From Sphingopyxis sp. YR583 (GTDB lineage: Bacteria; Pseudomonadota; Alphaproteobacteria; Sphingomonadales; Sphingomonadaceae): 64,000 nt of DNA. The notes beneath the pieces are model-generated. The model was not told where the DNA came from. It was given only the letters and a program-made list of their open reading frames with translations, and ran no database searches. Location: positions 186,001 to 250,000 of the forward strand of contig NZ_FNWK01000005.1 in the NCBI RefSeq assembly GCF_900108295.1, read 5' to 3'. Of the stretch, positions 46,952-63,104 are shown piece by piece. A program made the translations under genes and the position numbers. Every line of letters begins with the position of its first letter. The first letter of the stretch is position 1.

Positions 46952-46991
46952 ATTTTTCGACCGAGAAGACTCGTGCGTTTTGGGGAGAGTT

Positions 46992-48287: not shown

Positions 48288-49171
48288 CCGACGTCGCGGG
48301 CAAGACCGCCTTCATCACCGGCGGTGCAAGCGGGCTCGGGCTCGCGACCGCCCGGGCACTCGCCGCAAAGGGGGCATCAGTGATCCTCGCCGATATCGAC
48401 GCGGCGGGTGCCGAAAATGCGGCCGCCACGCTGCGCAACGAGGGCACAAGCGCGCTGGGTCTTCAACTCGACGTGACGAGCGAGGAAAGCTGGGCCGAGG
48501 CGGGCGCCAAAGCACGCGAATTCGGCCCGGTGCGCATATTGTTCAGCAACGCCGGGGTCGGCGGCGGATCGGGACCGTTCGAGCAATATGACACCGACGT
48601 CTGGCGCTGGAATTATGCGGTCAACGCACATGCGCATCTTTATGCCTGCCGGACCTTCCTCGGCGACATGAAGGCGAGCGGCGAGCCGAGCCATCTCGTC
48701 ATCACCTCTTCCATGGTCGCGATCGTGCCCCCGCCGATCTCGGTCGCCTATATCAGTTCCAAATATGCGACGCTGGGCATCGCGATGGCGCTGCGCAACG
48801 AACTCGCTGAAAGCTGCGTCGATATTTCGGTGCTGATGCCCGGCATGTCGGCGACGCGGATCGTCGAGACGACGCGCGACCTGCGTCCCGTCGAGGTCGA
48901 GGTCGGTAAGGCCGCGGCGACGAGCCAGGCGATGCAGGGCGTGCTCGCCGGCGGCATGTCCCCCGACAAGATCGGCGCGCGCGTCGTGCAGGCGATCGAA
49001 AATGGCGAATACTGGATCTTCACCCACCCCGAATGGAAGGCGATGGCCGAACTGGTGACGCAGGATATGCTGTCGTCCTTCGGTCCATCGGCCGATCCCG
49101 GTTACCGGGGCGACGATATCGACGGGCTGATCGCCGCGAACGGCGGCCGCATGTTCGGCGCGAAAAAATAG
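48284..49171 (+). CDS. Short-chain dehydrogenase/reductase (SDR)
   Basis: A 295-residue SDR. Cofactor motif TAFITGGASGLGLATARALA, acidic LADIDAAG (NAD preference), SNAGVGGGSGP, catalytic serine in ITSSMVAIVP and the Y-x3-K motif YISSK are all seen. The C-terminus is longer than in classical SDRs. The start overlaps the MFS stop as ATGA. It is the second gene of a six-gene plus-strand run to 52425. Confidence 0.9.
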   Translation: MTDVAGKTAFITGGASGLGLATARALAAKGASVILADIDAAGAENAAATLRNEGTSALGLQLDVTSEESWAEAGAKAREFGPVRILFSNAGVGGGSGPFEQYDTDVWRWNYAVNAHAHLYACRTFLGDMKASGEPSHLVITSSMVAIVPPPISVAYISSKYATLGIAMALRNELAESCVDISVLMPGMSATRIVETTRDLRPVEVEVGKAAATSQAMQGVLAGGMSPDKIGARVVQAIENGEYWIFTHPEWKAMAELVTQDMLSSFGPSADPGYRGDDIDGLIAANGGRMFGAKK

Positions 49172-49180
49172 GAGAGACAC

Positions 49181-49576
49181 ATGGCAGAGCAGGACGACAT
49201 TCGCGCAATGGCGCAGCGCTTCTTCGACGCGATCGAAGCTGGCGATATCGAGACGATGCGCGGCAGCTTCACCGACGATGCCGAGATCTGGCACAATACC
49301 GACGAGCTGATCGTCACCCCCGCGCAGACCGCGCAGACGCTGACCGGCATGGTTACGCGGATCAAGGACCGCGAATATGCCGACCGCCGGCTGACAACCT
49401 TCCCCGGCGGTTTCGTCCAGCAGCATGTCCTGAAGGGTGTGCGCGTCCACGACGACGGCCCGGTCCGCCTGCCCTGCGCGATCGTGTGCAAGGTCGAGAA
49501 TGGCAAGATCACGCGGCTCGACGAATATTTCGACAGCGCGCACGTCGCCGAATTCCGCAAATTTGCAAACGCTTGA
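49181..49576 (+). CDS. SnoaL-like / NTF2-fold protein
   Basis: A 131-residue protein of the SnoaL-like type: AQRFFDAIEAGDIETMRGSF, TDDAEIWHNTDELIVTPAQT, then KGVRVHDDGPVRLPCAIVCK and the end ITRLDEYFDSAHVAEF. A GGAGAG ribosome binding site precedes the ATG. The reaction is unknown; an isomerase or hydratase step is possible. It is not closely similar to the SnoaL-like gene at 44817. Confidence 0.83.
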   Translation: MAEQDDIRAMAQRFFDAIEAGDIETMRGSFTDDAEIWHNTDELIVTPAQTAQTLTGMVTRIKDREYADRRLTTFPGGFVQQHVLKGVRVHDDGPVRLPCAIVCKVENGKITRLDEYFDSAHVAEFRKFANA

Positions 49577-49586
49577 GGAGTTAGTC

Positions 49587-50234
49587 ATGCCCGTCCTGCG
49601 CCAGGTTCCCCGGTCCGAAGTCACCGACGAGACCGTCCTCGCTTATTACAACCGCCTGTTCGGCGAGCGCGATCCCGTTGCCGAGCCCGGGACCGCGACC
49701 GGAACCCCGGGCGACTGGTGGACGGTATTCGCGCTGTCGCCCGACATCTTCGAACATGCGGTCAAGGGTTTCGCCGTCTATCGCAATCCCGCGCGGACGA
49801 TCGATCCGGTGCTGCGCGAGCTCGGCCAGACGCGCGCCGGCTGGGTCAAGGGCAGCCAGTTCGTCTTTTCGCAGCATTGCAAGTCGCTCCGCGGGCTTGG
49901 CGTCAGTGAAGAGAAGATCGCGTCGATCGCGCATTGGCAGGTCGCCGATTGCTATGACGAGCAGGAACGCACCGTGCTCGCCTATGCCGACTGCCTTGCG
50001 CAGGCGAGCGGGCGCGTCCCGCTCGAGGTTTTCGACAAGCTCAAGACCTTCTGGAATGACGAGCAAATTTTCGAATTCACCTACATCACCTGCCTCTATG
50101 ACATGCATGCGGTGATCACCCGCGCGCTGCGCATGGAATATGACGCGCGCGAGGATCCGATCGTCGAGGTCGCCGCGCCCGAAGGCTTCAGCGCGGCCGA
50201 CTTCCTCAGCGCCCCGCGACCCGCGAACGGATAA
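49587..50234 (+). CDS. Carboxymuconolactone decarboxylase family protein
   Basis: A 215-residue helical protein of the AhpD/CMD superfamily. The active-site-like helix GSQFVFSQHCKSLRGLGVSE and the later QERTVLAYADCLAQASGRVP match the family. A GAGGAG site precedes the ATG. Such proteins act as decarboxylases, peroxidase partners or hydrolases. No other beta-ketoadipate genes are near, so true 4-carboxymuconolactone activity is unlikely. Confidence 0.82.
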   Translation: MPVLRQVPRSEVTDETVLAYYNRLFGERDPVAEPGTATGTPGDWWTVFALSPDIFEHAVKGFAVYRNPARTIDPVLRELGQTRAGWVKGSQFVFSQHCKSLRGLGVSEEKIASIAHWQVADCYDEQERTVLAYADCLAQASGRVPLEVFDKLKTFWNDEQIFEFTYITCLYDMHAVITRALRMEYDAREDPIVEVAAPEGFSAADFLSAPRPANG

Positions 50235-51148
50235 TGAGCGACTACGGCACCCCCGTGGTTGTCGCGACGGGCCTTCGTTTTCCTGAAGGCCCGGTGCCGA
50301 TGGCGGACGGGTCGGTGCTGCTGGTCGAGATCGCGCGCGGCACGCTGACGCGCGTCCTGCCCGGCGGCAGCCTGTCGGTCGTTGCGGAGCTTGGCGGCGG
50401 GCCCAACGGGCTCGCTGTCGGGCCCGATGGTGCCGCCTATGTCTGCAACAATGGCGGTTTCGAATGGGTCGAGGCGGGCGACCTGCTCTTTCCCGGCCAT
50501 GCTGCGCATGCCGAGCCCTGCGGATCGATCCAGCGCGTCGACCTGACCACCGGCACCGTGACGACGGTCTACGACAGTTTCGACGGGGAGCGCCTGAAGG
50601 GACCGAACGATATCGTCTTCGATGCGGACGGCGGCTTCTGGTTCACCGATCATGGGCAGGTCCGGGGCACCGGCCGCGATCATGGCGCAATCTATCATGC
50701 GGCCGCCGACGGGTCGAAGATCAGCCGCCAGCGCGCCGACATGATGGGGCCGAACGGCATCGGCCTCTCGCCCGACGGCAAGACGCTCTACGTCAGCGAG
50801 ACGATGACCGCGCGCGTCTGGGCGATGGAGATCGTTGCCCCCGGCGAACTCGCCGCACCGCCGCCCTGGGCGCCCGGCCGCTTTGTCGGCACACCGCCCG
50901 CCTTTCGCCTCCTCGACAGCATGGCGATCGAGGAAAATGGGTGCATCTGCGTCGGCACAATGGTCGAGGGCGGGATTACGATCTTCGACCCCGATGGCAG
51001 TGGCTCGGAGTTCGTGCCGCTGCCTGACATCGGCATCACCAACATCGCCTTTGGCGGCACCGATCGGCGCGATGCCTACATCACCGCATCGACGACAGGC
51101 ACGCTTTACCGCGTCCGTTGGCCGCGCCCCGGATTAACCGTCAACTAA
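50234..51148 (+). CDS. SMP-30/gluconolactonase family hydrolase
   Basis: A 304-residue six-bladed propeller. Metal ligands are predicted in RFPEGP (Glu), KGPNDIVFDADGGFWFTDHG (Asn) and MGPNGIGLSPDGKTLYVSET (Asn), with the Asp in FRLLDSMAIEENG. The family hydrolyses lactones, so it may open a lactone intermediate. Start and the upstream stop overlap as TAATG. Its own stop codon lies inside the 37-nt palindrome. Confidence 0.88.
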   Translation: MSDYGTPVVVATGLRFPEGPVPMADGSVLLVEIARGTLTRVLPGGSLSVVAELGGGPNGLAVGPDGAAYVCNNGGFEWVEAGDLLFPGHAAHAEPCGSIQRVDLTTGTVTTVYDSFDGERLKGPNDIVFDADGGFWFTDHGQVRGTGRDHGAIYHAAADGSKISRQRADMMGPNGIGLSPDGKTLYVSETMTARVWAMEIVAPGELAAPPPWAPGRFVGTPPAFRLLDSMAIEENGCICVGTMVEGGITIFDPDGSGSEFVPLPDIGITNIAFGGTDRRDAYITASTTGTLYRVRWPRPGLTVN

Positions 51149-51165
51149 GTTGACGGTTAATCCGG
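51129..51165. promoter_or_regulatory. Perfect 37-nt palindrome at the SMP-30 stop codon
   Basis: Arms CCGGATTAACCGTCAACT (51129-51146) and AGTTGACGGTTAATCCGG (51148-51165) flank one central A. It covers the SMP-30 stop codon and ends 30 nt before the next start. The right arm holds TTGACG, a possible -35. It could be an operator or a 3'-end hairpin; no T-tract follows. Confidence 0.6.
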
Positions 51166-51195
51166 ATAATGATAAAAGAAGCGGGAGAGGACAGA

Positions 51196-51813
51196 ATGAG
51201 ATTCTATACCAGCGTCGGCCCGAACCCGCGCGTCGTGAAGCTTTTCATGGCCGAAAAGGGTATCGAAATTCCCGAGGTCGCAATCGACCTGCGCGGCGGA
51301 GAGAACCGGCGCGCGCCCTATAATATCGATGTAAATCCCGCCGGACAGACGCCTGCGCTCGAACTCGACGACGGCAGCTTTCTCTGCGAAGTCACCGCGA
51401 TCTGCGAATATCTGGACGAACGTTTCCCCGATCGCACGCTGATCGGCTCGACCGCCGAAGAACGCGCAAAGACGCGTATGTGGACGCGGCGCGTCGACCT
51501 CAAGATTTGCGAGCCGCTGACCAACGGCTTCCGCTTTGCCGAGGGCCTGCCCTTGTTCGAGCCGCGCCTGCGCTGTCTGCCCGAAGCGGCGGATGGATTG
51601 AAGGCGACCGCGCAGGACGGGATCAAATGGCTCGATGCGCAGATCGCCGGGCGCGAGTTCATTGGCGGTGACGCCCTCAGCCTCGCGGACATCATGCTGT
51701 TCGCGTTCCTCGATTTCGGTGCATCGGTCGGCCAGCCGATCGACCCCGCCTGTACGAATATCCAGAGCTGGTACGAGCGGATGAAAAGCCGCCCCAGCGC
51801 CACCGCAAACTGA
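51196..51813 (+). CDS. Glutathione S-transferase family protein
   Basis: A 205-residue GST of a different subgroup from the two Nu-like ones. N-terminal domain: FYTSVGPNPRVVKLFMAEKG, the cis-proline region NPAGQTPALELDDGSFLCEV and the E-[ST]-like glutathione site shifted to CEVTAICEYLDERF. The C-terminal helices include GGDALSLADIMLFAFLDFGA. A GGGAGAGGA ribosome binding site favours the ATG at 51196. It is followed by the VOC gene after 18 nt. Confidence 0.88.
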   Translation: MRFYTSVGPNPRVVKLFMAEKGIEIPEVAIDLRGGENRRAPYNIDVNPAGQTPALELDDGSFLCEVTAICEYLDERFPDRTLIGSTAEERAKTRMWTRRVDLKICEPLTNGFRFAEGLPLFEPRLRCLPEAADGLKATAQDGIKWLDAQIAGREFIGGDALSLADIMLFAFLDFGASVGQPIDPACTNIQSWYERMKSRPSATAN

Positions 51814-51831
51814 ACCACAAGGAGACGGATC

Positions 51832-52425
51832 ATGGCTGCAGCAAATAGCGAATTCGAATTCTGCGGGGTCAATCACCTCGCGCTCGTGTGCAAGGACATG
51901 GCGAAGACGGTCGAATTCTATCGCGACACGCTCGGCATGCCGCTGACCAAGACGATCGATCTGCCCGGCGGGCGCGGCCAGCATTTCTTCTTCGACATCG
52001 GCAATGGCGACAGCCTCGCCTTTTTCTGGTTCCCCAATGCGCCCGAGGCCGTTCCGGGCATATCGGCGCCCGCCGCGCTGCCGACGCAGGGCAGCTTCGT
52101 GTCGGCGCACGGATCGATGAACCATATCGCGATCAACGTCCGCGCCGACAAGTTCGACGATTATTACAACCGCCTGATCGAAAAGGGCATCGAGGTAACC
52201 CCGGTGCTGAACCACGACGACAGCCCGATGCAGGCTTCGGCCGAAATGCACCCCGGCGTCTTCGTCCGCTCGGTCTATTTCTTCGATCCCGACGGTGTCT
52301 GCCTCGAGTTCGCGGCGTGGACCAAGGAATTCGACGAGAGCGACGTCGCGCACGATCCGGTGCAGGCCGACGGCACGAAGCGCGAGGGCTTTATCGTAGG
52401 CCGCACGCCGGTGCCCGCCGAATAG
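51832..52425 (+). CDS. VOC superfamily protein (glyoxalase/dioxygenase-like)
   Basis: A 197-residue protein with two beta-alpha-beta-beta-beta modules. Likely metal ligands: His in CGVNHLALVCKD, His in GSMNHIAINVRA, Glu in DPDGVCLEFAAW. The family includes glyoxalase I, extradiol dioxygenases and isomerases. With a GST just upstream, a glutathione-dependent step is plausible but not shown. It ends the plus-strand run before a terminator. Confidence 0.86.
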   Translation: MAAANSEFEFCGVNHLALVCKDMAKTVEFYRDTLGMPLTKTIDLPGGRGQHFFFDIGNGDSLAFFWFPNAPEAVPGISAPAALPTQGSFVSAHGSMNHIAINVRADKFDDYYNRLIEKGIEVTPVLNHDDSPMQASAEMHPGVFVRSVYFFDPDGVCLEFAAWTKEFDESDVAHDPVQADGTKREGFIVGRTPVPAE

Positions 52426-52461
52426 ACATTCCCAATAAATTACCCATTGGGAACTCCTCCT

Positions 52462-52489
52462 GAACCCGGCCATTGGCCGGGTTCTTTTT
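52462..52489 (+). terminator. Intrinsic terminator after the VOC gene
   Basis: Perfect 10-bp arms GAACCCGGCC and GGCCGGGTTC with loop ATT, followed by TTTTT. It closes the MFS-to-VOC transcription unit; the convergent ligase gene ends 24 nt further on. Confidence 0.92.
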
Positions 52490-52512
52490 GGAGAAGACGG
52501 CAGAGGGACCGC

Positions 52513-54078
52513 CTACCCGACGGCCCGATCGCGCCCTTCCCAATAGGGCGCGCGAAGTTCACGGCGCAGCACCTTGCCCGACGGGTTGCGCGGCAGCGCG
52601 TCGATGAACTCGATGCTCTTCGGCACCTTGTATGCCGCAATCCGTTCACGCGCCCACGCGATGACGTCCGCAGGGTCGAGCGTCGCCCCCGTTGCGGGCA
52701 CGATCAGCGCCTTAACCCCCTCGCCCCATTTATCGTCGGGCACGCCGATCACGGCAACGTCGGCGACGCCGGGGCAGCCCATGATCGCGCTTTCGACCTC
52801 CGCCGGATAGACATTTTCGCCGCCCGACACGATCATGTCCTTGATGCGGTCGTGGACGTAATAGAAGCCGTCGGCATCGCGATAGCCAACGTCGCCGGTG
52901 TGGAGCCAGCCGCCCGCGAGCGTTTCTTCGGTCGCTTTCGCGCGGTTCCAATATTCCTTCATCACGATACCGCCACGGATCGCGATTTCGCCGATCTCGC
53001 CCTCACCGAGTTCGCGGCCCTCGCCGTCGAGGATCGCCATTGCGGCGCCGGGCCAGGGCTTGCCGCAAGAGGTTAGCTTGCCCGGCAGGTCGTGCGCGCT
53101 TGGCGACAGGTAGGAACCGCCGCCGGCGGATTCGGTCATGCCGTAGAATTGCACGAAATCGCAGCCGAAGGTCGCACGCGCACGCCGGAGCACATCCTCG
53201 GCGATCGGCGAGGCGCCATAGGCAATCGATTTGAGCGCGGGATAGGTGCCCGCATTCGCATCGGGCTGAAGCAGCATCATCTGGATCATCGCAGGCGCGA
53301 GGAAAGCGTGCGCGACATCCTCCTCGCGCATCATGCGCACCGCGTCGGCGGCGGTGAAATCCTTGACGAGTACGAGGCGCCCGCCCTGCGCCAATCCCGA
53401 GAAGCTGACGTTCGTGCCCGCAACATGGAACAAAGGCATGACGATCATCACCGTCTCGTCCTCGCCATAGGCGAAGCCGTCGACCTCGGTCGCCGCTTCG
53501 AGGAAGGTGCGATAATTGGCGTTGGTCAGCACGACGCCCTTGGGCAGCCCGGTGGTGCCGCTGGTATAGAGCTGGAGCACATCGTCGCCGAGTTGTGGCG
53601 GATCGGCTAGCGGCGCGTCGGACGCGTCACCGAGCCATGCGTCGAACGGCTCGAACGCCGGATGTTCGCCATAAAGCGCGATCAGGCGCGGCGGCGCCGT
53701 GAGGTCGGCGACCGCCGCCAACGCGCAATCGAAGAAATCCTCGCCCACGAAGAGCAGCTTCGGCCCGGCGTCGCCGAGAATGAAGCCGATCTCTGCGGGC
53801 GCGAGGCGGCAGTTGATCGGCGCGAAACAGGCGCGTGCGCGCGCCGTGCCGAAGAAAAGCGGATACCAGCTATCATGGTTCTTCGTCAGCGCCGACACGC
53901 GACCACCGGGGACGACGCCCGACGCGATCAGCGCGTGGGCGACGCGATTCGACCGCGCATCGAGCTCGGTGAAACTCGTCTCACGCTCCCCGAATTTCAC
54001 CGCGGTCGCAGCGCCCCGCACTCGCGCCTGCGCCGCCGGAATGTCCGCCAGCGTCCGGATGGCCTCCAGATCGATCAT
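52513..54078 (-). CDS. Acyl-CoA ligase (AMP-binding, ANL superfamily)
   Basis: A 521-residue ligase that should activate a carboxylic acid with ATP and CoA. The P-loop is YTSGTTGLPKGV, the A5 motif FYGMTESAGGG, the A8 hinge DRIKDMIVSGGENVYPAEVE and the catalytic lysine region PRNPSGKVLRREL. GGGAGAG before the ATG at 54078 fixes the start; the open frame runs further upstream only over the operator. It is divergent from the MetE-like gene. Confidence 0.92.
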   Translation of the reverse strand: MIDLEAIRTLADIPAAQARVRGAATAVKFGERETSFTELDARSNRVAHALIASGVVPGGRVSALTKNHDSWYPLFFGTARARACFAPINCRLAPAEIGFILGDAGPKLLFVGEDFFDCALAAVADLTAPPRLIALYGEHPAFEPFDAWLGDASDAPLADPPQLGDDVLQLYTSGTTGLPKGVVLTNANYRTFLEAATEVDGFAYGEDETVMIVMPLFHVAGTNVSFSGLAQGGRLVLVKDFTAADAVRMMREEDVAHAFLAPAMIQMMLLQPDANAGTYPALKSIAYGASPIAEDVLRRARATFGCDFVQFYGMTESAGGGSYLSPSAHDLPGKLTSCGKPWPGAAMAILDGEGRELGEGEIGEIAIRGGIVMKEYWNRAKATEETLAGGWLHTGDVGYRDADGFYYVHDRIKDMIVSGGENVYPAEVESAIMGCPGVADVAVIGVPDDKWGEGVKALIVPATGATLDPADVIAWARERIAAYKVPKSIEFIDALPRNPSGKVLRRELRAPYWEGRDRAVG

Positions 54079-54111
54079 TTTGCTCTCCCAATCGTCGTTT
54101 CGACTTGAATT

Positions 54112-54127
54112 AGATAGAATACTAAGC
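54112..54127. promoter_or_regulatory. Operator copy 3, ligase/MetE-like gap
   Basis: AGATAG-AATA-CTAAGC: the right half is strong, the left half partly degenerate. It lies mid-way in the 86-bp gap between two divergent genes, 38 nt from the plus-strand start codon. Confidence 0.6.
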
Positions 54128-54164
54128 AAATGCTTGGCCAGATAAAAATTCGAGAGGACCGGCC

Positions 54165-55217
54165 TTGTTCGACCACCCCATCCTGCCGACAACCATCGTC
54201 GGAAGCTACCCCCAGCCTGACTGGCTGATCGACCGCGAAAGGCTGAAGGCCAGCCTGCCGCCGCGCGTGCGGGCAGAGACGCTGTGGCGCATTCCCGAAC
54301 CTTGGCTCGCCGACGCGCAGGAAGCCGCAACATTGATGGCGATCCGCGATCAGGAAGAGCTGGGCATCGACATCGTCGGCGACGGCGAGATGCGCCGCGA
54401 AAGCTATTCGAACCGCCTCGCGACGGCGCTGTCGGGGATCGACCGCGAGAAGCACGGCACGGCGATCGACCGTACGGGCAACGCCAATCCGGTCCCGCTC
54501 GTTTCGGGGCCGATCCGCCGCGTTGCACCGATCGAGGCACAGGACGCGGCGTTCCTGCGCCGCCATTCAACGAAGCCGGTGAAACTCACCCTGCCCGGCC
54601 CCTTTACGATGACGCAGCAGGCCGAGAACGGTTTTTATCCCGATCTGCGATCGCTCGCGATGGACTATGCCGATGCGGTCAATGCCGAGGTGAAGGATCT
54701 TTTCGCGGCGGGCGTCGATGTCGTCCAGCTCGACGAACCCTATCTGCAGGCGCGGGCCGCCGAGGCGAACAGCTATGCGATCGAGGCGATCAATCGCGCG
54801 CTCGACGGCGTCGACGGGACGACCGCGCTGCATATCTGTTTCGGCTATGCGATGGTCCACCATGGCGCGGGCGCGACGGGACCGAAGCCCAAGGCCTATG
54901 ACTTCCTGGCGGAACTCGAAGCGTCGAATATCGACGTAATCTCGATCGAAGCGGCGCAGCCGGGGCTCGACCCCGCGATTCTTGCCGAACTGCCGACCAA
55001 GACGATCATGTATGGCGTGCTCGACCTGTCGATCCCCGAGGTCGAAACACCCGAAGTCGTCGCGGGGCGCATCCGCGAGGCGCTGCGCTATGTCGACGCC
55101 GAACGACTGTGGATCGCGCCCGATTGCGGGATGAAATATCACAGCCGCGAGCATAGCCAGGCGAAGCTGAAGGCGATGGTCGACGGCACCGCGATGGTAC
55201 GGGCGGAGCTCACCTGA
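54165..55217 (+). CDS. MetE-like zinc methyltransferase, C-terminal domain only
   Basis: A 350-residue barrel of the cobalamin-independent methionine synthase family, without the N-terminal half of MetE. Zinc ligands appear as HIC in TALHICFGYAM, Glu in ISIEAAQPG and Cys in IAPDCGMKYH. The start is TTG at 54165 with GAGAGGA upstream. Such short forms may move a methyl group to or from substrates other than homocysteine. In this cluster an O-demethylation role is conceivable, by inference only. Confidence 0.85.
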   Translation: MFDHPILPTTIVGSYPQPDWLIDRERLKASLPPRVRAETLWRIPEPWLADAQEAATLMAIRDQEELGIDIVGDGEMRRESYSNRLATALSGIDREKHGTAIDRTGNANPVPLVSGPIRRVAPIEAQDAAFLRRHSTKPVKLTLPGPFTMTQQAENGFYPDLRSLAMDYADAVNAEVKDLFAAGVDVVQLDEPYLQARAAEANSYAIEAINRALDGVDGTTALHICFGYAMVHHGAGATGPKPKAYDFLAELEASNIDVISIEAAQPGLDPAILAELPTKTIMYGVLDLSIPEVETPEVVAGRIREALRYVDAERLWIAPDCGMKYHSREHSQAKLKAMVDGTAMVRAELT

Positions 55218-55221
55218 TCTG

Positions 55222-55247
55222 GTCATCCCGGCGAAGGCCGGGATGAC
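55222..55247. repeat. Short GTCAT-type palindrome
   Basis: Perfect arms GTCATCCCGGC and GCCGGGATGAC around GAAG, immediately after the MetE-like stop and before the convergent hydrolase-fold gene. It belongs to the same repeat type as those at 2722 and 46035, and may double as a terminator. Confidence 0.8.
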
Positions 55248-55254
55248 GAATTGA

Positions 55255-55947
55255 TCAAGCGTCGATGAACTCGGTCAGCAGTGGCACCACCACTTCGGGC
55301 GCCTCGACCGTTGGCAGATGTCCGGCCCCGGCAATCACCTCCAGCCGCGCGCCCGGGATCGCGTCCAGTATCTCGTCATGGTGTGCGCGGCTGGTGATGC
55401 CGTCCTTTTCGCCCCAGATGAGCAAGGTCGGCACAGCGATCTCGCCGAGGCGCGGACGGCTGTCGATCCGCGCCATGATCGCACGCTGCTGTGCGAGGAA
55501 GGTGTCGGCACCGGTATCCGCCGCCATCTGCCGTGCGATGCCGAGCAGGCGGGTGTCGCCGCGTTTGTCCTCGGGGAAGAGGATCGGGATGCGTTCCTCG
55601 ACGACCTGATCGAAATTGCCACTTTCGACGAGGTCGATATAGCCCTGCCGCCGCGCGGTCTGCGCCGGGCCATCGGCCGAGGCCAGTGTCGAGATCAGCG
55701 CGAGCTTCGCGACGCGTTCGGGCGCGCGGCGCAATACCTCGAAGGCGATAAAGCCGCCCATTGCATGCGCAATGAGGATGAATTTCGGCGGAGCGTTGTC
55801 GAGCAGGCGCTGTGCGAAATCCTCGATCCTGTCGTCGCTGCGATTGTCGGCGACGATGACCTCGCGGTCGCCCCACGCGTCGAGCAGAGGTTGCCATATG
55901 GCGTCGGTCAGAAGCTGGCCGGTGATGAGAACGATGGGGAGCGACAT
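55255..55947 (-). CDS. Alpha/beta-hydrolase fold protein lacking the nucleophile serine
   Basis: A 230-residue protein with the complete fold: oxyanion region LITGQLLTDAIWQPLL, nucleophile elbow, acid in IWGEKDGITSRA, and histidine in GAGHLPTVEAPE. At the elbow, where G-H-S-M-G-G is expected, it reads AHAMGG: the serine codon is GCA (Ala). Hydrolysis by the usual mechanism is therefore unlikely; a lyase, decarboxylase or binding role is possible. It overlaps the dehydrogenase stop as TAATG and is the last gene of the operon. Confidence 0.85.
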   Translation of the reverse strand: MSLPIVLITGQLLTDAIWQPLLDAWGDREVIVADNRSDDRIEDFAQRLLDNAPPKFILIAHAMGGFIAFEVLRRAPERVAKLALISTLASADGPAQTARRQGYIDLVESGNFDQVVEERIPILFPEDKRGDTRLLGIARQMAADTGADTFLAQQRAIMARIDSRPRLGEIAVPTLLIWGEKDGITSRAHHDEILDAIPGARLEVIAGAGHLPTVEAPEVVVPLLTEFIDA

Positions 55948-56867
55948 TAGATCACCTGATGAAGAAGAGGTTCGCCGGCGACGAGGCGGCGGCAATTTTC
56001 GTGCGCCACGGTGAGGCTGCGTATGAGTGTTTCGGGGGTGAGCCAGGCGATATGCGGCGCGAGCACCGCATTCGGCAGGCCGAGCAGCGGATTGCCGCGC
56101 GGTAGCGGCTCGTCGGCGAAGACATCGAGTCCGGCGCCGCGCAGATGCCCCGAGGTGAGCGCCTCGACCAGCGGCGCCTGATCGACGAGTTCGCCGCGCG
56201 CGGTGTTCACGAGCACCGCGCCGCGCTTCATCGCGAAGGGGTCGATGCTGGCGCGCGTCTCGTCGGTCAGCGGGATGTGCAGCGACACGATGTCGCTCTC
56301 CGCCAGCAAGCGATCCAGCGGTAGAAATTCGTAGGGCACATCGCGCGGGCTGCGCGCGGTATAGACGACCTTTGCCCCCAGCGCCGCGAGGACCGGAGCG
56401 AGCAGCCCGGCCGAATGACCGAAGCCGACGAGACCGACCGTGCGCCCGCCGATTTCACCGACGCTGTCGAGCTCGGATGGGTCGGCGGTCCATCCCTCGC
56501 CTGCGCGCGTTCGCGCATCGAAGAAGCAGGTGCGGCGGAGCACCGCCATCATCAGCGACAGCGCCATTTCGGCGACCGCCTGGCTGTTGGTGCCGGGCAT
56601 GTTGCACACCGCGGCGCCGTGATCGCGGGCCGCATCGAGCGCAATCGTGTTCACCCCGACGCCGAGCTTCTGGATCAGTTTCAGTTTCGGTGCCGAGGCA
56701 ATGAACTCGGGGGTGACCGGCGTCAGGACATGCAGCAACGCGGTGATCTCGTCCGCCACACCGTCGAGCGGCTCGGCCTCGTCGACATGCGTCACAACGC
56801 CGGCGCCGAAGATCGCATCGACCGCTTCGCGAAAACCGGGGCTCGGCCGGGCGTGGAGGACGATCAT
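55947..56867 (-). CDS. D-2-hydroxyacid dehydrogenase family protein
   Basis: A 306-residue dehydrogenase. Catalytic Arg (NTARGELVD), Glu (DVFADEPLP) and His (LAPHIAWLT) are all present. The cofactor motif is VGLVGFGHSAG, where the third glycine is Ala, and the second strand ends VVYTARSPRD with Arg instead of Asp, which suggests NADP. It should interconvert a 2-keto and 2-hydroxy acid. The start at 56867 overlaps the enolase stop as ATGA. Confidence 0.92.
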   Translation of the reverse strand: MIVLHARPSPGFREAVDAIFGAGVVTHVDEAEPLDGVADEITALLHVLTPVTPEFIASAPKLKLIQKLGVGVNTIALDAARDHGAAVCNMPGTNSQAVAEMALSLMMAVLRRTCFFDARTRAGEGWTADPSELDSVGEIGGRTVGLVGFGHSAGLLAPVLAALGAKVVYTARSPRDVPYEFLPLDRLLAESDIVSLHIPLTDETRASIDPFAMKRGAVLVNTARGELVDQAPLVEALTSGHLRGAGLDVFADEPLPRGNPLLGLPNAVLAPHIAWLTPETLIRSLTVAHENCRRLVAGEPLLHQVI

Positions 56868-58162
56868 GCGTGAACCGCCCCGATCGATCCCGCAAAGGCC
56901 GAGAAGCCAGCGAACACCGCGTCGGCGCCCATCGCTTCCTCGATCCGCAGCATCTCGTTCCACTTCGCCATGCGCTCGGACCGCGTGAAGCTGCCGACCT
57001 TCAATTGCCCGGCGTTCCAGCCGGTCGCGAGATGCGCGATGGTGACATCCTCGCTCTCTCCCGAGCGCGCCGACACGATCGCGCCCCAGCCGCGCGCGAC
57101 GGCTGCGTCGAGCGCGGCCTTGGCCTCGGTCACGGTGCCGACCTGATTGACCTTGATCAGCGCCGCGTTGCAGACCCCCGCATCGCCAGCGCGTTCGACG
57201 CGCGCGGCATTGGTAACAAGCACGTCGTCGCCGATGATTTGCACCCGATCACCGATCGCGGCGGTCACCGCCGTCATGGTGGTCCAGTCATCCTGCCCCG
57301 CCGGATCTTCGATCGACAGGATCGGATAGCGCTTCGCCCATTCGACGATCCGCGCCGCCATCTCCTCGCCCGACAGCCGCCCGTGGTCGAGCGCCAGATC
57401 ATAGCCATCGGCATCGCCGAGTTCGTTCGCGGCGATGTCGAGCGAAATGAACACCTCTTCGCCCGCACGGTGGCCGCTCGCTTCGATGGCCTTGGTGAGC
57501 GTATCGAGCGCATCCTCGTTCGACGCGAAATTGGGCCACCAGCCGCCTTCGTCGGCGACCCCCGACAAAGGCCCCTTCGCTTCCATCAATTTGCCAGCGG
57601 CGCGATAGACATCGTCGGTAATTTCAAGCGCGCGGCGGAAGCTGCCCGCTTTCGGGCACATGACCATGAAGTCCTGCACATCGGTGCGCCGTCCCGCGTG
57701 CGCGCCGCCCCCGAAAATCTGGATTTCGGGAAGCGGGGTGCGCACCTTGCGGCCCTCGGCAAGATAGCGCCACAGCGGCTCGCGCACGTCGGCCGCGGCC
57801 GCGTGCAGAACCGCCATCGACACCGCAACGACCGCGTTCGCGCCCAATCGCGCCTTGTTCGTGGTGTTGTCGAGCGCACAGAGCGCGGCGTCCACGTCCG
57901 CCTGATCGCGCGCGTCCATGCCGCCGATCGCGCTTGCAATTTCCGACCCGATCCCCGCGACCGCGCGGTTGACGCCGAAGCCGCCAAACGCGCGTCCGCC
58001 GTCGCGCAGGTCGATCGCCTCATGCGCCCCGCGCGAGGCGCCCGCCGGGGCGATGGCGCGCCCGACCGCCCCCGATTCCAGCGTGACTTCAGCCTCGACG
58101 GTGGGCCGGCCGCGCGAATCCCATATCTGGCGGCCGGTGACGGAGGCGATACGCGAAGTCAT
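56864..58162 (-). CDS. Enolase paralogue with altered active site
   Basis: A 432-residue protein along the full length of enolase. Metal ligands are kept (Asp in ISLDIAANE, Glu in LSIEDPAGQDDW, Asp in IIGDDVLVTN), as are Glu in ADEGGWWPN, the catalytic Lys in ALIKVNQVGT, Arg-Ser of the phosphate site and Lys in NAGQLKVG. Changed are the loop GAST-G to GASRG, QEFM to QDFM, and the strictly conserved His of SHRSGETED, which is Ala (SARSGESED). It should abstract a proton from a 2-phospho acid, but not necessarily 2-phosphoglycerate. It overlaps genes on both sides. Confidence 0.9.
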   Translation of the reverse strand: MTSRIASVTGRQIWDSRGRPTVEAEVTLESGAVGRAIAPAGASRGAHEAIDLRDGGRAFGGFGVNRAVAGIGSEIASAIGGMDARDQADVDAALCALDNTTNKARLGANAVVAVSMAVLHAAAADVREPLWRYLAEGRKVRTPLPEIQIFGGGAHAGRRTDVQDFMVMCPKAGSFRRALEITDDVYRAAGKLMEAKGPLSGVADEGGWWPNFASNEDALDTLTKAIEASGHRAGEEVFISLDIAANELGDADGYDLALDHGRLSGEEMAARIVEWAKRYPILSIEDPAGQDDWTTMTAVTAAIGDRVQIIGDDVLVTNAARVERAGDAGVCNAALIKVNQVGTVTEAKAALDAAVARGWGAIVSARSGESEDVTIAHLATGWNAGQLKVGSFTRSERMAKWNEMLRIEEAMGADAVFAGFSAFAGSIGAVHA

Positions 58163-59139
58163 GCAAGGTTCCTTTTCCAATGGGTCACAAGGGTGTCGAG
58201 CGGCTCCGTCGCAAGGATCAGCGCACGCGCCTGATCGCGCACGATACGCTGGTGTTCGGGATCGGTCAGATAGGGTGCGGGCGACTTGCCCTCGACCCGC
58301 GCGAGGAGCAGCGCCGCCGTCAATTCGCCCGCGCGCAGCAGCAGGCCATCGACATCTTCCCAGTCGACACCCTCCCGATACGCCGCAACGAGCGCCGCAG
58401 CGGCCTCGGTCAGCCGCGCATCGCCCGACCACACCGATTTCAGGAGCAGATGCGTGGCGCAAAAAGCCAGATCGAAGGCCGGATCGCCATAGACCGCGCA
58501 TTCGGCATCGAGAAAGACCGGGCCGTCGGCGCTGACGAGAATATTCTTCGGGCTGACATCGCCATGGACGAGCGCGATCTTACGTACCGACAGGTCGTCG
58601 GCGAACCGGCGCAGGACAGGCGCGAGTTCGGCGTCGCGTTCGGCGACGTAGAGCAGGAAGGGATCGACGCGCAGCGCACGGAACATCGCGTCGTTGGGAA
58701 AATCGTCGCGGTCGTCGTCGCTGTGCGCGGTGGCCGCGTGAACCGCGGCAATCCGCTGCCCCACCGCAGCAGCAAAAGCGGCGTCCACCCGCCCGGCCAT
58801 CAGCTCGTCCTTCCACACGGGTGAGCCGGGCAGGAAGCGCATGGCAAAGGCGTGACCCGTGGGCAGTTCGGCGAGCACTTCGGGCGCGATACGCGCATCG
58901 ACACCGCGCGCGCGCCGAAGCCAGCGAACCTCGCTCTGGCCGCGTTCGACCGGTGCATGCCATTCGGCGGCGACGCGAAGCTGGGGCAGAGGCCGCTTGA
59001 CGACGATCGGGCCCGATGGCGTTTCAACCTTCCACACATCGCACGACACGCCGCCGGTCAGCGGTTCGAGAACGACATCGCCCTCGCCCGCCAAGCCGGC
59101 CGCGCGCAATTCGCGAACAATGTCGGCGTCCGCCGTCAC
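58159..59139 (-). CDS. APH-type small-molecule kinase
   Basis: A 326-residue phosphotransferase of the aminoglycoside/choline kinase fold. The nucleotide-binding region includes VVKRPLPQ; the catalytic loop LVHGDVSPKNILVSADGPVF and the metal site FLDAECAVYGDPAFDLAF are intact. GTG at 59139 is the start, 1 nt after the upstream stop. Its stop overlaps the enolase start as ATGA. Context suggests it phosphorylates a hydroxy-acid for the enolase paralogue rather than an antibiotic. Confidence 0.9.
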   Translation of the reverse strand: MTADADIVRELRAAGLAGEGDVVLEPLTGGVSCDVWKVETPSGPIVVKRPLPQLRVAAEWHAPVERGQSEVRWLRRARGVDARIAPEVLAELPTGHAFAMRFLPGSPVWKDELMAGRVDAAFAAAVGQRIAAVHAATAHSDDDRDDFPNDAMFRALRVDPFLLYVAERDAELAPVLRRFADDLSVRKIALVHGDVSPKNILVSADGPVFLDAECAVYGDPAFDLAFCATHLLLKSVWSGDARLTEAAAALVAAYREGVDWEDVDGLLLRAGELTAALLLARVEGKSPAPYLTDPEHQRIVRDQARALILATEPLDTLVTHWKRNLA

Positions 59140-59140
59140 G

Positions 59141-60268
59141 TCAGAGCTTCTCCCGGATCCACGCGCCGACAAGGTCGGCCGCATTCTGGCGTTCGGCAAT
59201 CGAATCCTCGAAATAATGCGCACCGGTGATCAGTTCGAGCTTCTTGTCGGTCGAACCGAGGAAGTCGAAGATCTTGCGCGCGTCGCTGGGAAACACGCCC
59301 GTATCGGCGGTTCCCTGCACGACAAGCGCCGGCGTGTCGTGCTTGGCGAGGTGCGGCTGCCCCTGGCATGGCGAGGTTTCGAGGCTCCACATGTTGAGCC
59401 AGGTCCTGAGCGTATTCGCGCGGCCGATGCTGGGCGTGCGGTTCGCGATCGCCGGGTCGCCGCGATAGCACCAATTCGGCTTGCGGTCCGAAGGATCGAT
59501 CGCCGGATCGACGCAGCGGATGTCGCCCCAGCAGCGGAACATCGGAAAGATGCGGTCGGGAATGCCGGCATCGTTCAGCCGTTTCAGCTCGGCCTTTGCC
59601 CAGTCGGTGATCCGCTGGTTGCGGGCACGCTGCGCGGCACGATATTTGGCAATGAACGCGTCCGAATAGGGCGGACCGTTATCGGGGTTGAACGGATCGA
59701 GTTCGGGGTCGGTTGCCACGGGATCATTCTCGTCGACCACCGACGCGTCCATCCAGTCGGTCAGCACTTCCGGGCGGCCCTGATGCGCGTTGAAGCTGAT
59801 ATAGAGGTCGCCCTTGATGAGCTGCGCGAGCGCATCCTGCCCGACTGCGGGCAGCCGGTCGGTCAGCGTCGGCGCGATGGCTTCGGCCTGATAGGCGCCC
59901 ATGAGCGAACCGCCGCCCGAATTGCCGAGAATGACGATCTGTTCGACGCCCGCCTCTTCCTTCAGCCATTTCATGCCGACGCCGATATCGAGCACCGCAT
60001 GTTCGAGCAGGAACTGGTCCTCGACCCCGCGATAGCGCGTGTTCCAGCCTAGAAAGCCAAAGCCCTGCCGCGCGAAATAGGGCGCGATATAATGTTCCGA
60101 GAAATCGACATTATAGTGGGTTGCGATGATCGCGACCTTCGGTCGGGTGCCGGCCGCCGTCCAGTAAATGCCCTGGCACGGATGCCCGCCCGCCTGAATG
60201 CGCGGCGCCGTCGGCGAAACCAGCCCGATGAATTGCGCGTCCAGTCCTTCGATCCCGTTCGGGTCCAT
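59141..60268 (-). CDS. Alpha/beta hydrolase
   Basis: About 375 residues. The nucleophile elbow is ILGNSGGGSLMGAYQAEA, with Asp expected in VVQGTADTGVFPSD and His in ITGAHYFEDS. Three ATG codons in a row lie behind GGAGAG; the third gives the best spacing. A long insertion (about residues 140-265) with many Asp, Arg and Cys forms a large cap. Ester or thioester substrate unknown. It lies 29 nt after the acyl-CoA ligase gene. Confidence 0.87.
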   Translation of the reverse strand: MDPNGIEGLDAQFIGLVSPTAPRIQAGGHPCQGIYWTAAGTRPKVAIIATHYNVDFSEHYIAPYFARQGFGFLGWNTRYRGVEDQFLLEHAVLDIGVGMKWLKEEAGVEQIVILGNSGGGSLMGAYQAEAIAPTLTDRLPAVGQDALAQLIKGDLYISFNAHQGRPEVLTDWMDASVVDENDPVATDPELDPFNPDNGPPYSDAFIAKYRAAQRARNQRITDWAKAELKRLNDAGIPDRIFPMFRCWGDIRCVDPAIDPSDRKPNWCYRGDPAIANRTPSIGRANTLRTWLNMWSLETSPCQGQPHLAKHDTPALVVQGTADTGVFPSDARKIFDFLGSTDKKLELITGAHYFEDSIAERQNAADLVGAWIREKL

Positions 60269-60297
60269 CATCATCTCTCCTGATTGTCGATTATTCT

Positions 60298-61932
60298 TCA
60301 GCGGGTGACTTCGAAAGGCAGTTTGTAGCCTTCCAGCCCGGCACGGATTGCTTTCTTGTCGATCTTGCCCGTCGGCCCGAGCGGGATCTCTTCGACGAAC
60401 AGCACATCGTCGGGCATCCACCAGCGCGCGATCTTGCCGTCGAGGTAGGATTTGAGATCGTCGGCGCAGGCGTTGGCGCCATCCTTGAGCTGGCACAGCA
60501 GGATCGGCCGCTCGTCCCATTTCGGATGCGCGACCCCGACGACCGCCGCATTGGCGACCGCATCATGCCCCATCGCGATATTTTCGATCTCGATCGAACT
60601 GATCCACTCGCCGCCCGATTTCACCACATCCTTCGCACGGTCGGTGATCTGCATATAGCCTTCGCCGTCGATCGTGCTGACGTCGCCGGTGTCGAAAAAG
60701 CCTTCGACGTCGAGCACATCGCCGCCTTCGCCGCCATAATAGGCGCCCGCGATCGTCGGCCCTTTGATCATCAGGCGGCCGGGCGTCTTGCCATCGTGCG
60801 GCAGGCGCTTTCCGGCATCGTCGACGAGCTTCATTTCGAGCCCGCAGAGCAGCCGCCCCTGCTTGAGCTTATAGGCCATCTGCTCGGGTTCGGATTTCGC
60901 GGCGACCGACGCATTGGGCACCGACACCGTGCCGAGCGGCGAGGTTTCGGTCATGCCCCAGCCCTGAATGACGTCGACCCCATAATCGTCGCGGAACGTA
61001 CGGATGATCGACTCGGGGCACGCCGAACCACCGATCGTCACGCGTTCCAGCGTCGTGAAGCGCTTGCCGTTTTCCTGCATATAGGTGAGCAGCATCTGCC
61101 ACACCGTCGGCACCGCGGCCGAGTAAGTGACGCCCTCTTCCTCGATCAGATCATAAATCGATTCGCCGTCCATCCGTTGCCCCGGCAGCACCAGCTTTGC
61201 GCCGACCGCGGGCGCCGAATAGACGACGCCCCACGCATTCGCATGATACATCGGGACCACCAGCAACACCGTGTCGCGCGCCGAAAGCGCGAGTGCATCG
61301 CGCTGCAGGGTCATCAACGCATGGATATAATTGGAGCGGTGCGAATAGAGTACGCCCTTGGGATTGCCCGTCGTCCCGCTGGTGTAGCAGAGCCCGCACG
61401 CGGCATTTTCGTCGAAGTCGCCCCAGTCATATTCGGCGGCCCGGCCCGCGATCCAGTCGTCGAACGCGACGGCGGCGAAGCTGGTTTCGGGCATCGATGC
61501 GGCGTCGCAAAAGAAGATCACTTTCTCGATGCTCGGCACCTGCGGCAGCAGTTCTTCGACGAGGTCGGCGGTCGCCGGGTCGGCGATCAGCAGCCGGTCG
61601 CCGGCGTGGTTCGCGATATAGGCGATCTGTTCGAGGAAAAGCCGCGGGTTGAGCGTGTGGAGCACCGCCCCCATTCCCGCCGCGCCATACCATGCGGCGA
61701 GGTGCCGCGCGCCGTTCCAACCCATCGTCGCAACGCGGTCGCCGGGTTTGATTCCTTCGGCGGCGAGCGCGTTCGAAACACGCTTCGCATCGGCATGGAC
61801 GGCGGCATAGGTCGAGCGCGTGACGCGCCCCTCGGCATCGCGGGACACGATCTCGCGCGCGCCGTGCCAGTTCGCCGCATGATCGATGATCCGGTCGACC
61901 GTCAGCGGCACATTCTGCATCAACCCGTCCAT
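60298..61932 (-). CDS. Acyl-CoA ligase (fatty-acid/aryl type)
   Basis: A 544-residue ANL ligase. P-loop YTSGTTGNPKGVLYSH, adenylate motif IQGWGMTETSPLGTVSVP, hinge DRAKDVVKSGGEWISSIEIE and the catalytic lysine region IPLGPTGKIDKKAIR are present. The hinge GGEWISS form is typical of medium- to long-chain and aryl-acid ligases. GGGAGAG precedes the ATG. It is the first gene of the six-gene minus-strand operon that contains the kinase and the enolase paralogue. Confidence 0.93.
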   Translation of the reverse strand: MDGLMQNVPLTVDRIIDHAANWHGAREIVSRDAEGRVTRSTYAAVHADAKRVSNALAAEGIKPGDRVATMGWNGARHLAAWYGAAGMGAVLHTLNPRLFLEQIAYIANHAGDRLLIADPATADLVEELLPQVPSIEKVIFFCDAASMPETSFAAVAFDDWIAGRAAEYDWGDFDENAACGLCYTSGTTGNPKGVLYSHRSNYIHALMTLQRDALALSARDTVLLVVPMYHANAWGVVYSAPAVGAKLVLPGQRMDGESIYDLIEEEGVTYSAAVPTVWQMLLTYMQENGKRFTTLERVTIGGSACPESIIRTFRDDYGVDVIQGWGMTETSPLGTVSVPNASVAAKSEPEQMAYKLKQGRLLCGLEMKLVDDAGKRLPHDGKTPGRLMIKGPTIAGAYYGGEGGDVLDVEGFFDTGDVSTIDGEGYMQITDRAKDVVKSGGEWISSIEIENIAMGHDAVANAAVVGVAHPKWDERPILLCQLKDGANACADDLKSYLDGKIARWWMPDDVLFVEEIPLGPTGKIDKKAIRAGLEGYKLPFEVTR

Positions 61933-61960
61933 GCGAGCGTCTCTCCCTTTTTGCTTTAAT

Positions 61961-61976
61961 AGATAGTATGCTAAGT
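61961..61976. promoter_or_regulatory. Operator copy 4, upstream of the ligase-enolase operon
   Basis: AGATAG-TATG-CTAAGT. On the minus strand it overlaps the spacer and -10 of TTGCAA (61991-61986), 17 bp, TACTAT (61968-61963), about 30 nt before the ligase start codon. The divergent marR gene starts 103 nt away on the other side. Confidence 0.7.
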
Positions 61977-62079
61977 ATTTGATGATTGCAACGCCGCTCT
62001 GCCTTGCTTCGCCTGCCCCGCTCTTCTAGCGTGACGATGCCGGCACCCAGCAGGCAACAGGGATTATTCACAGCGTCAT

Positions 62080-62532
62080 ATGCGCACAAATCAGCTTATC
62101 ATTGCCCTTTTCCAACGTTTCTGCTGGCTCGACGAAGGGCTGCAGGCGCGTCTCCACGATCATGGCTGGCCCGACGTCAACCGCCCACAATCTATGGTGA
62201 TGACCAACATCGTCAGCGGCATCGTTCGCCCGTCGGACATCGCGCGCAATCTTGGCGTATCGCGGCAGGCGATCCACAGCACCATCAACCAGATGGTGAA
62301 ACTGGGCATCGTGCAACTCGACGTCGATCCCGACGACCGGCGCCATATGATCGTCTCGCTGACCGACCTTGGCACACGCATGCGCGAGGATGCCCAGCGA
62401 TCGATGGATGCGCTGACCGCACAGATCGCCGCCCGCTTGGGACAGGACCGGTTCGACGACCTGCTCGCGGCGCTCGAAGCCGACTGGGGCGACAATCTCG
62501 AGCCCGCCCCCCAGCGCCAGCGGCGGACCTAA
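62080..62532 (+). CDS. MarR family transcriptional regulator
   Basis: A 150-residue winged-helix regulator. The recognition region is RPSDIARNLGVSRQAIHSTI followed by NQMVKLGIVQLDVDPDDRRH, the wing with its conserved D-x-R-x-R-like pattern. It starts 103 nt from operator copy 4. The ribosome binding site is weak. Its stop overlaps the end of the convergent FMN reductase gene by 4 nt. Confidence 0.9.
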   Translation: MRTNQLIIALFQRFCWLDEGLQARLHDHGWPDVNRPQSMVMTNIVSGIVRPSDIARNLGVSRQAIHSTINQMVKLGIVQLDVDPDDRRHMIVSLTDLGTRMREDAQRSMDALTAQIAARLGQDRFDDLLAALEADWGDNLEPAPQRQRRT

Positions 62533-63104
62533 CCCGCGAGCGCTTTTGCCACGGCGACCAGGCGTCCGGCAGTCAGATCGACGAGCGACGCGGGAAGCGC
62601 ATCCTTCAGGCTGCCGTCCTCGGCAAAGGCGGCATGCGCATTCGGCACCACGACCTGTTCGGGAATCACGAGCATCTGGATCGTCAACAGAATCTGGCGA
62701 AGGTGCATCAATCCGCGCAGCCCCCCGAACGGGCTGATCGACGCCGACATGACCGCCGCGGCCTTGCCGCGATAGGCGGTCAGCGCCACGAGCCCCTCGT
62801 CGCCGGTCGGGCGGGACGCCCAATCGATCGCATTTTTGAGCAAAGGCGATAGCGAACCATTATATTCGGGGGAGACGAAGAGCAGCCCGTCCTGCGCCGC
62901 GAACAGCGCCTTGAGTTTCAGGGCGTCGGGCGGGAAGGCATTGGCCTCGAGCGCGGCCGAATAGAGCGGCAGATCGAATGCCGCGAGATTGACCCGCGTC
63001 ACCTTTGCGCCGTGCGCCTCGAGGCTGGTCGCGGCCAGTTCCCCCAAGGCGCGGTTGAACGATCCTTCGCGGATGCTTCCCGCGATGACGGCGATGCTGG
63101 TCAT
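62529..63104 (-). CDS. NADPH-dependent FMN reductase
   Basis: A 191-residue flavodoxin-like protein. The FMN phosphate loop AGSIREGSFNRALGELA and the motif FVSPEYNGSLSPLLKNAIDW are characteristic. It may supply reduced flavin to a monooxygenase or reduce quinones; no flavin monooxygenase lies in the window. Operator copy 5 sits 20 nt upstream of its start codon. Confidence 0.92.
   Translation of the reverse strand: MTSIAVIAGSIREGSFNRALGELAATSLEAHGAKVTRVNLAAFDLPLYSAALEANAFPPDALKLKALFAAQDGLLFVSPEYNGSLSPLLKNAIDWASRPTGDEGLVALTAYRGKAAAVMSASISPFGGLRGLMHLRQILLTIQMLVIPEQVVVPNAHAAFAEDGSLKDALPASLVDLTAGRLVAVAKALAG

Follow-up and report, generated by a model that had tools for sequence, protein, structure and literature searches.

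A conserved kinase–enolase gene pair with an altered enolase active site in Sphingopyxis and distant prokaryotes, and its possible role in a specialised glycerate-like route

Enolase is among the best-studied enzymes, and the operon described here raises the question of why a bacterium that already has one should keep a second, altered copy beside a small-molecule kinase. The operon occupies positions 55255–61932 of a 64,000-nucleotide stretch of Sphingopyxis sp. YR583 (the window; positions 186001–250000 of contig C5, NZ_FNWK01000005.1, in a 4.3 Mb genome of five contigs). It comprises six intact minus-strand genes, overlapping or separated by short gaps, that include an APH-superfamily kinase, an enolase paralogue and a D-2-hydroxyacid dehydrogenase. 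An initial annotation of this sequence had proposed that the kinase phosphorylates a hydroxy acid, that the enolase then eliminates water and that the resulting keto acid is reduced or oxidised by the dehydrogenase. The kinase–enolase module is real and conserved, and it is probably misannotated.

Because a separate, ordinary (housekeeping) enolase is encoded in the same genome at C5:64843–65688, the paralogue is not the sole genomic enolase; the initial annotation would have given up its reading had the paralogue been the only one and turned over 2-phosphoglycerate normally. The two proteins are 44 % identical, with Enolase_C scores of 427.1 bits for the housekeeping enolase and 288.5 for the paralogue. 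By domain the paralogue scored 157.3 bits for Enolase_N and 287.4 for Enolase_C, both above the cut-offs, and it fell within the NCBIfam phosphopyruvate hydratase equivalog TIGR01060 (466.2 bits, cut-off 300). Its predicted structure model has a pLDDT of 86.6. Where the paralogue carries a name in the records, that name is enolase or phosphopyruvate hydratase.

Active sites were compared in an alignment of 61 paralogues (motif SARSGE) and 21 ordinary enolases of the class (SHRSGE), from which duplicates and frames shorter than 390 residues were left out; all 82 sequences fit one group or the other. The control set, 20 ordinary enolases, was hand-picked and non-random, comprising the higher-scoring of the listed matches together with some from kinase genomes. 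Yeast numbering was fixed on solved chains for residues 156–219 and 336–420, and positions outside these ranges, including 246, 295 and 320, are given as we take them to map. Ser39, His159, Glu211, Asp246, Glu295, Asp320, Lys345, Arg374, Ser375 and Lys396 are invariant in all 61 paralogues and all 21 ordinary enolases; among them Asp246, Glu295 and Asp320 are the Mg ligands, and Lys345, Lys396 and Glu211 are catalytic. At position 168 (QEF motif) every one of the 61 paralogues has Asp and every one of the 21 ordinary enolases has Glu, while position 373 is Ala in the former and His in the latter without exception, a count that follows from the definition of the SARSGE group, so that Glu168 to Asp alone is counted independently. 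In plasmid-record loci, 15 of the 16 enolase homologues, including those of a haloarchaeon and of Bacteroidota, carry SARSGE, and these 15 have Asp at 168; the sixteenth is degenerate. Both residues presumably lie near the C3 side of the substrate. The joint change at 168 and 373, with the remaining catalytic set kept, suggests that the paralogue is a working enzyme with altered specificity.

The degenerate homologue lies on an Enterobacter plasmid (L199, 7211–8449) and has EKGG for DEGG and neither SARSGE nor SHRSGE. It is divergently oriented from a 36 % kinase relative, downstream of which are U32-peptidase and aminotransferase genes.

Enolase proper (EC 4.2.1.11) shares with the paralogue both Pfam domains, TIGR01060, the metal ligands, Lys345, Lys396, Glu211, His159, Arg374 and Ser375. 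It differs in that Glu168 and His373 are unchanged, whereas the paralogue is kinase-partnered and additional to an ordinary enolase. In a phylogenetic tree the ordinary enolases formed one clade with all paralogues outside it. A single origin of the paralogues is not proven by this tree, since under midpoint rooting the paralogues did not come out as monophyletic, and archaeal and Bacteroidota ordinary enolases were left out. A non-glycolytic member of the enolase subgroup is carboxyphosphonoenolpyruvate synthase, an enolase homologue of phosphinothricin biosynthesis; a search of open-licence PMC full texts for this enzyme returned nothing. In a paper on the SFLD the enolase family serves to illustrate the enolase subgroup (PMC5467563). 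No phosphonate genes (phosphoenolpyruvate, PEP, mutase) were found among the ten window proteins scanned, the scan covering those ten only. In two genomes, proteins that by eye resemble the ICL/PEP-mutase superfamily are found no more than several kb from the paralogue or the kinase (L161, 7351–8157; L206, 1870–2715).

Coupling of the paralogue to the kinase was examined across 385 genomes of the class, of which 39 carry the kinase. With an enolase profile built from paralogues, scores of at least 584.7 bits were taken as clear paralogues, the next score being 560.3. All 33 genomes with a clear paralogue were kinase genomes (hypergeometric 5.6e-42), and in G592 the two genes co-occur although they are on different contigs. 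The bit-score cut is liable to miss divergent paralogues such as those of G377 and G641, which lie beside the kinase at 44–46 % identity and score below it. In G586 the kinase is on a short contig and there is one lower-scoring enolase match; G392, G513 and G619 have two enolase matches each and no kinase match. Two kinase genomes of the family (G085 and G242) were left out of this genome-wide enolase search.

Both genes were present in 65 of 75 examined loci, with the kinase only in eight and the enolase only in two; these loci were mostly found through the kinase, whose presence is therefore by design. The tally leaves out L199 and the PEP carboxylase loci L202–L204 and counts G592 and G376 twice each. 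The two genes are adjacent on one strand in 58 of the 65 loci (kinase first in 54, enolase first in four), with ATGA at 35 of these 58 junctions; in the remaining loci they are on the same strand but apart (two) or on opposite strands (five). For three of the kinase-only loci (L094, L162 and L167) the genome's paralogue is on another contig. The mirror-tree correlation between the two proteins was 0.64 over 66 pairs, and none of 999 permutations exceeded 0.28 (species descent ignored). A dedicated pairing of the kinase with the paralogue is supported. Three loci (L105, L106 and L107) contain kinase relatives with no enolase paralogue nearby, and in L105 and L107 a VOC protein 63–64 % identical to that of the window is close by.

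A kinase search of genome contigs gave 35 loci, 29 close and six distant. The close loci belong to Sphingopyxis, the source of the closest relatives of both kinase and paralogue, or to metagenome-assembled genomes labelled Sphingomonadaceae, Alphaproteobacteria or Proteobacteria. All six genes were found in the same order in 28 of these 29 (in L027 with several matches split between frames), and the contig of the other, L022, stops approximately 500 nt upstream of the kinase. The distant loci come from Rhodospirillales, Gammaproteobacteria, Afifellaceae, Kiloniellales, Acetobacteraceae and unclassified Proteobacteria; all six have kinase and enolase and two have the dehydrogenase, while the CoA ligase and both hydrolases gave no match there at the threshold used. 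The kinase was detected in 14 of 298 genomes of the family (own genome included) and, in a phylum-wide draw, in nine of 398 genomes, one of these outside the class. Plasmid records with module genes came from Rhizobium, Cupriavidus, Paraburkholderia, Caballeronia, Azospirillum, Roseibium, Paracoccus, Methylobacterium, Rhodococcus, Persicobacter and Haladaptatus. Kinase and enolase, often with the dehydrogenase, thus occur in Alpha-, Beta- and Gammaproteobacteria, Actinomycetota, Bacteroidota and one haloarchaeon. The initial annotation had proposed looking for the kinase–enolase–dehydrogenase neighbourhood in other genomes, and it is found there, in full order in the close loci and as kinase–enolase adjacency across phyla.

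What is conserved as a unit is the kinase–paralogue pair, which the D-2-hydroxyacid dehydrogenase often accompanies. Outside this core, the CoA ligase and both hydrolases are kept mainly in sphingomonad clusters. Beyond sphingomonads there is a partial ligase/hydrolase set in L114, from another family, and scattered weaker matches: the ligase has relatives in L114 and, weakly (44 %), in L128, the 377-aa hydrolase has one 37 % relative in L118, and the 230-aa hydrolase is also found in L114.

The kinase matched only APH and Fructosamin_kin in Pfam (E≤0.001), and neither PF02595 nor PF13660. Its predicted fold is that of methylthioribose kinase (MTRK). Identity to 5-methylthioribose kinase (MtnK) in structural alignment was 15–20 %, the score against the TIGR01767 equivalog was 47.9 bits (cut-off 275) and no methionine-salvage family was named among the ten window proteins scanned. 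To our knowledge, none of the glycerate kinase classes I (GlxK), II (GckA/MOFRL) and III is of the APH type. These classes are presented as structurally unrelated in a published account, in which classes I and II yield 2-phosphoglycerate in sugar and sugar-acid pathways (PMC2063504). The reaction type of classes I and II is the one proposed below for this APH-type kinase. The dehydrogenase scored below the equivalog cut-offs for glyoxylate reductase (170.2 vs 455), GhrB (128.8 vs 492) and GhrA (48.8 vs 403). Among the 33 carriers, PF13660 (DUF4147), which we take to be the domain of the GckA/MOFRL glycerate 2-kinase, was present in 28 and PF02595 (GlxK type) in one.

Genes neighbouring the module in relatives were used as a guide to substrate. 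Across the 75 loci a dehydrogenase homologue was found in 36, FAH-family proteins in 14, SDR proteins in 13, PEP carboxylase in five and MR_MLE dehydratase in four; absences in this tally are weak because a limited query set was used, which missed the UxuA-like gene of L211. The neighbours point to no single substrate: some loci resemble sugar ABC operons, others ring-cleavage clusters, and many have no informative neighbour. Clusters in Roseibium and Paracoccus combine LacI, kinase, enolase, FAH, SDR and a sugar ABC transporter. The Sinorhizobium locus L211 has a sugar-type ABC transporter, SDR, UxuA-like dehydratase, SMP-30-like protein, kinase, enolase, FAH and SDR, and the kinase–enolase–FAH–SDR order recurs in L112, L195 and L196. 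The FAH proteins of L195 and L211 are closest to 2,4-didehydro-3-deoxy-L-rhamnonate hydrolase (342–368, cut-off 500). Such a hydrolase would, by known chemistry, split a hexose-derived diketo acid into pyruvate and glycerate, and the kinase and enolase could then salvage this glycerate as PEP. Non-phosphorylative sugar pathways that end in a diketo-acid hydrolase likewise have SDR, SMP-30-like, dehydratase-like and FAH genes, and such genes flank or adjoin the module region in L211 and L119 (some of the SMP-30 labels were given by eye); kinase and enolase are not known to belong to these pathways, however, and the module's FAH proteins are below the equivalog cut-off.

Other contexts point to further sources. 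In Haladaptatus (L209) a GarL-like aldolase is divergent from the kinase–enolase pair (234.6, cut-off 393), in Persicobacter (L205) there are a class II aldolase, a PfkB kinase, a weakly matched isomerase and an aldehyde dehydrogenase, and in L101 an aminotransferase, by eye of serine–glyoxylate type, adjoins the kinase–enolase–dehydrogenase trio. Rhizobium has consecutive genes for PEP carboxylase, dehydrogenase and kinase; in L194, L212, L115 and L116 PEP carboxylase adjoins dehydrogenase and kinase with the enolase on the opposite strand, and in L207 it is approximately 7–10 kb away. From their predicted functions, the sugar, aldolase, aminotransferase and PEP carboxylase contexts could all feed glycerate or hydroxypyruvate. 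At least two upstream pathways appear to draw on the module, since VOC, cupin, FAH and carboxymuconolactone-decarboxylase genes form further clusters besides those of sugar type.

Gene order, conservation, co-occurrence, the altered active site and the predicted kinase fold are direct observations, and from them we tentatively propose, at somewhat less than an even chance, a specialised glycerate-like kinase–enolase(–dehydrogenase) route whose reaction steps, substrate and direction we infer. The dehydrogenase would form a 2,3-dihydroxy acid by reducing a hydroxypyruvate-like 2-oxo acid, the kinase would use ATP to phosphorylate its 2-hydroxyl and the enolase paralogue would then remove water, giving PEP or an analogue. 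The substrate would most likely be L-glycerate, a stereoisomer, or a C3-substituted glycerate; the ordinary route through D-2-phosphoglycerate is less likely and would duplicate existing enzymes in the majority of carriers tested. This redundancy and the fixed active-site changes together favour an acid close to but distinct from D-glycerate, and a specialised substrate could also be why the housekeeping enolase and an ordinary glycerate kinase do not replace the pair. Gene order by itself does not settle the place of the dehydrogenase, which more likely makes the hydroxy acid, because relatives' neighbours are likely to yield glycerate, glyceraldehyde, tartronate semialdehyde or hydroxypyruvate. 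Phosphorylation of a hydroxy acid followed by elimination of water, as in the initial annotation, is retained as what would be the simplest chemistry for the conserved enolase residues; its last step, with the dehydrogenase acting on the keto acid released, was probably misplaced, as relatives' neighbours suggest that this enzyme acts before the kinase. Searches of open-licence PMC full texts for the gene set, the second enolase, the altered residues or the nearest known enzymes returned no pathway with this set in sphingomonads, in agreement with the initial annotation, and no description of the kinase–enolase pair. More broadly, and with slightly greater reserve, we suggest that a widespread, misannotated subfamily of true enolases, with Glu168 changed to Asp and His373 to Ala, may have left glycolysis and formed with a dedicated MTRK-fold kinase a horizontally spread route from a non-standard glycerate to PEP or an analogue.

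Several points weigh against this proposal. Every reaction in it is inferred from sequence. Three kinase genomes (G301, G614 and G634) have an ordinary-scoring enolase only, which suggests that the paralogue can be dispensable, and the loci behind the adjacency counts, besides mostly holding the kinase by design, are not independent of one another. A dehydrogenase of a D-specific family would give D-glycerate, not L-glycerate. The window's own genome gave no match to PF13660 or PF02595 on search, so here the kinase could simply be the genome's only D-glycerate kinase. In G710 and G768 the PEP carboxylase beside the module is the genome's sole match, which suggests that the product is ordinary PEP.

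The last three of these points also favour an alternative that we consider rather unlikely, namely ordinary glycerate salvage by a hydroxypyruvate reductase, a fourth, APH-type class of D-glycerate 2-kinase and a functional 2-phosphoglycerate enolase that tolerates the two substitutions. Relatives' neighbours point to C3 acids and PEP, and PEP carboxylase is found beside dehydrogenase and kinase, as this explanation would have it. However, both of its steps would be duplicated, by the own genome's ordinary enolase and by PF13660 in most carriers, and the recurrence of identical substitutions at both active-site positions in several phyla, a haloarchaeon included, suggests another substrate or chemistry.

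An improbable alternative, and the closest to the scheme of the initial annotation, is a two-step ATP-dependent dehydratase of larger 2,3-dihydroxy acids such as aldonates or aryl-glycerates, in which phosphorylation at C2 and elimination by the enolase would deliver 2-keto-3-deoxy acids to SDR/FAH enzymes or to the dehydrogenase. The paired substitutions could plausibly widen the pocket near C3, and the kinase–enolase–FAH–SDR order would suit such products. This scheme is ranked as a rival because L211 and L119 have aldonate-dehydratase homologues of their own near the module, which would make a substitute needless there: a UxuA-like dehydratase within 5532–6854 of L211 (147.7 bits, cut-off 191) and, in L119 at a distance of a few kb, MR_MLE dehydratase homologues (galactonate-dehydratase-like, 275.9 vs 311). 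The same homologues speak against viewing the FAH–SDR operons as lacking an aldonate dehydratase. The enol phosphate would, moreover, require an extra dephosphorylation, for which no gene was noticed.

A kinase acting on the 3-hydroxyl, with the paralogue then expelling phosphate to leave a 2-keto-3-deoxy acid, is very unlikely. No separate phosphatase would then be needed, and a changed leaving group could account for the substitutions around the C3 site, but Arg374 and Ser375, which we take to be C2 phosphate ligands, are present in every one of the 61 paralogues, and the acidic residues Glu211 and Asp168 stay at what is presumably the leaving-group side. A non-catalytic or regulatory role of the paralogue alongside the kinase, or a pairing that serves something beyond central carbon metabolism, has in its favour the degenerate homologue beside a distant kinase on the Enterobacter plasmid. 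It is likewise very unlikely, as the catalytic lysines, the metal ligands and Glu211 do not vary among the 61 paralogues, which argues for catalysis. Sulfolactate desulfonation was rejected, the sole hint being the sulfate-assimilation-like neighbours of L098, read by eye.

The genes of the operon and its candidate regulator are listed in Table 1. The tight packing described in the initial annotation, with ATGA or TAATG overlaps and gaps of at most 29 nt, is present throughout. The ligase and the 377-aa hydrolase are separated by 23 nt (29 nt if the third ATG is the start) and this hydrolase and the kinase by 1 nt; ATGA overlaps join kinase to enolase paralogue and enolase paralogue to dehydrogenase, and the junction of dehydrogenase and last hydrolase is a TAATG overlap. 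The CoA ligase matched NCBIfam PRK06018 at 853.9, above the cut-off of 766. An NCBIfam scan of the 377-aa hydrolase gave no match, and its best match among solved structures had an E value of only 0.0046; for the 230-aa hydrolase the top NCBIfam matches, PcaDC/PcaD, were far below cut-off. The MarR-type gene has the same divergent place in 27 of the 29 close loci; the remaining two lie on short contigs. An inverted-repeat scan upstream of the operon gave no clear operator.

Table 1. Positions in the window of the operon genes and the divergent regulator
Feature	Position	Strand	Remarks
AMP-forming acyl-CoA ligase, 544 aa	60298..61932	-	Operon's first gene; Pfam AMP-binding
Alpha/beta hydrolase, 377 aa	59141..60274	-	Pfam Hydrolase_4 at threshold (27.1 vs 27)
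APH-superfamily small-molecule kinase	58159..59139	-	Module core; GTG start; predicted methylthioribose-kinase fold
Enolase paralogue	56864..58162	-	Module core; Enolase_N and Enolase_C; Glu168 to Asp and His373 to Ala (yeast numbering)
D-2-hydroxyacid dehydrogenase	55947..56867	-	Third and less constant module member; PF00389 2-Hacid_dh and PF02826 2-Hacid_dh_C above cut-offs
Alpha/beta hydrolase, 230 aa	55255..55947	-	Operon's last gene; Pfam Abhydrolase_1
MarR-type regulator (label by eye)	62080..62532	+	Divergent; candidate controller of operon

The operon is inside a catabolic-looking island (window 44800–63100) that is partly kept in sphingomonads and contains, with several labels assigned by eye, SDRs, an MFS transporter, SnoaL-like, CMD-like, SMP-30, GST and VOC proteins, a second CoA ligase, MarR and an NAD(P)H reductase. 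Beside the operon, at 54165–55217, is a short MetE-like protein with Meth_synt_2 only (NF006589, 246.7 bits, cut-off 392); it was found in 26 of the 29 close loci at 94–98 % identity, which puts it with the best-conserved genes of these loci.

A second, chemically altered enolase, usually beside one particular kinase, is found in many bacteria and in one archaeon or more, and this suggests a dedicated route that turns a small hydroxy acid into an energy-rich phosphate. If so, many genes labelled phosphopyruvate hydratase would do something else, and carbon models of Alphaproteobacteria and other groups would double-count a glycolytic step. The enolase subgroup, regarded as essentially one-function, would gain a new specificity, and glycerate-type kinases a fourth structural class. 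The natural double variant at Glu168 and His373, with the remaining catalytic set in place, is useful for the study of enolase mechanism. The module would represent a small-molecule pathway common to soil, plant-associated and marine bacteria and a haloarchaeon.

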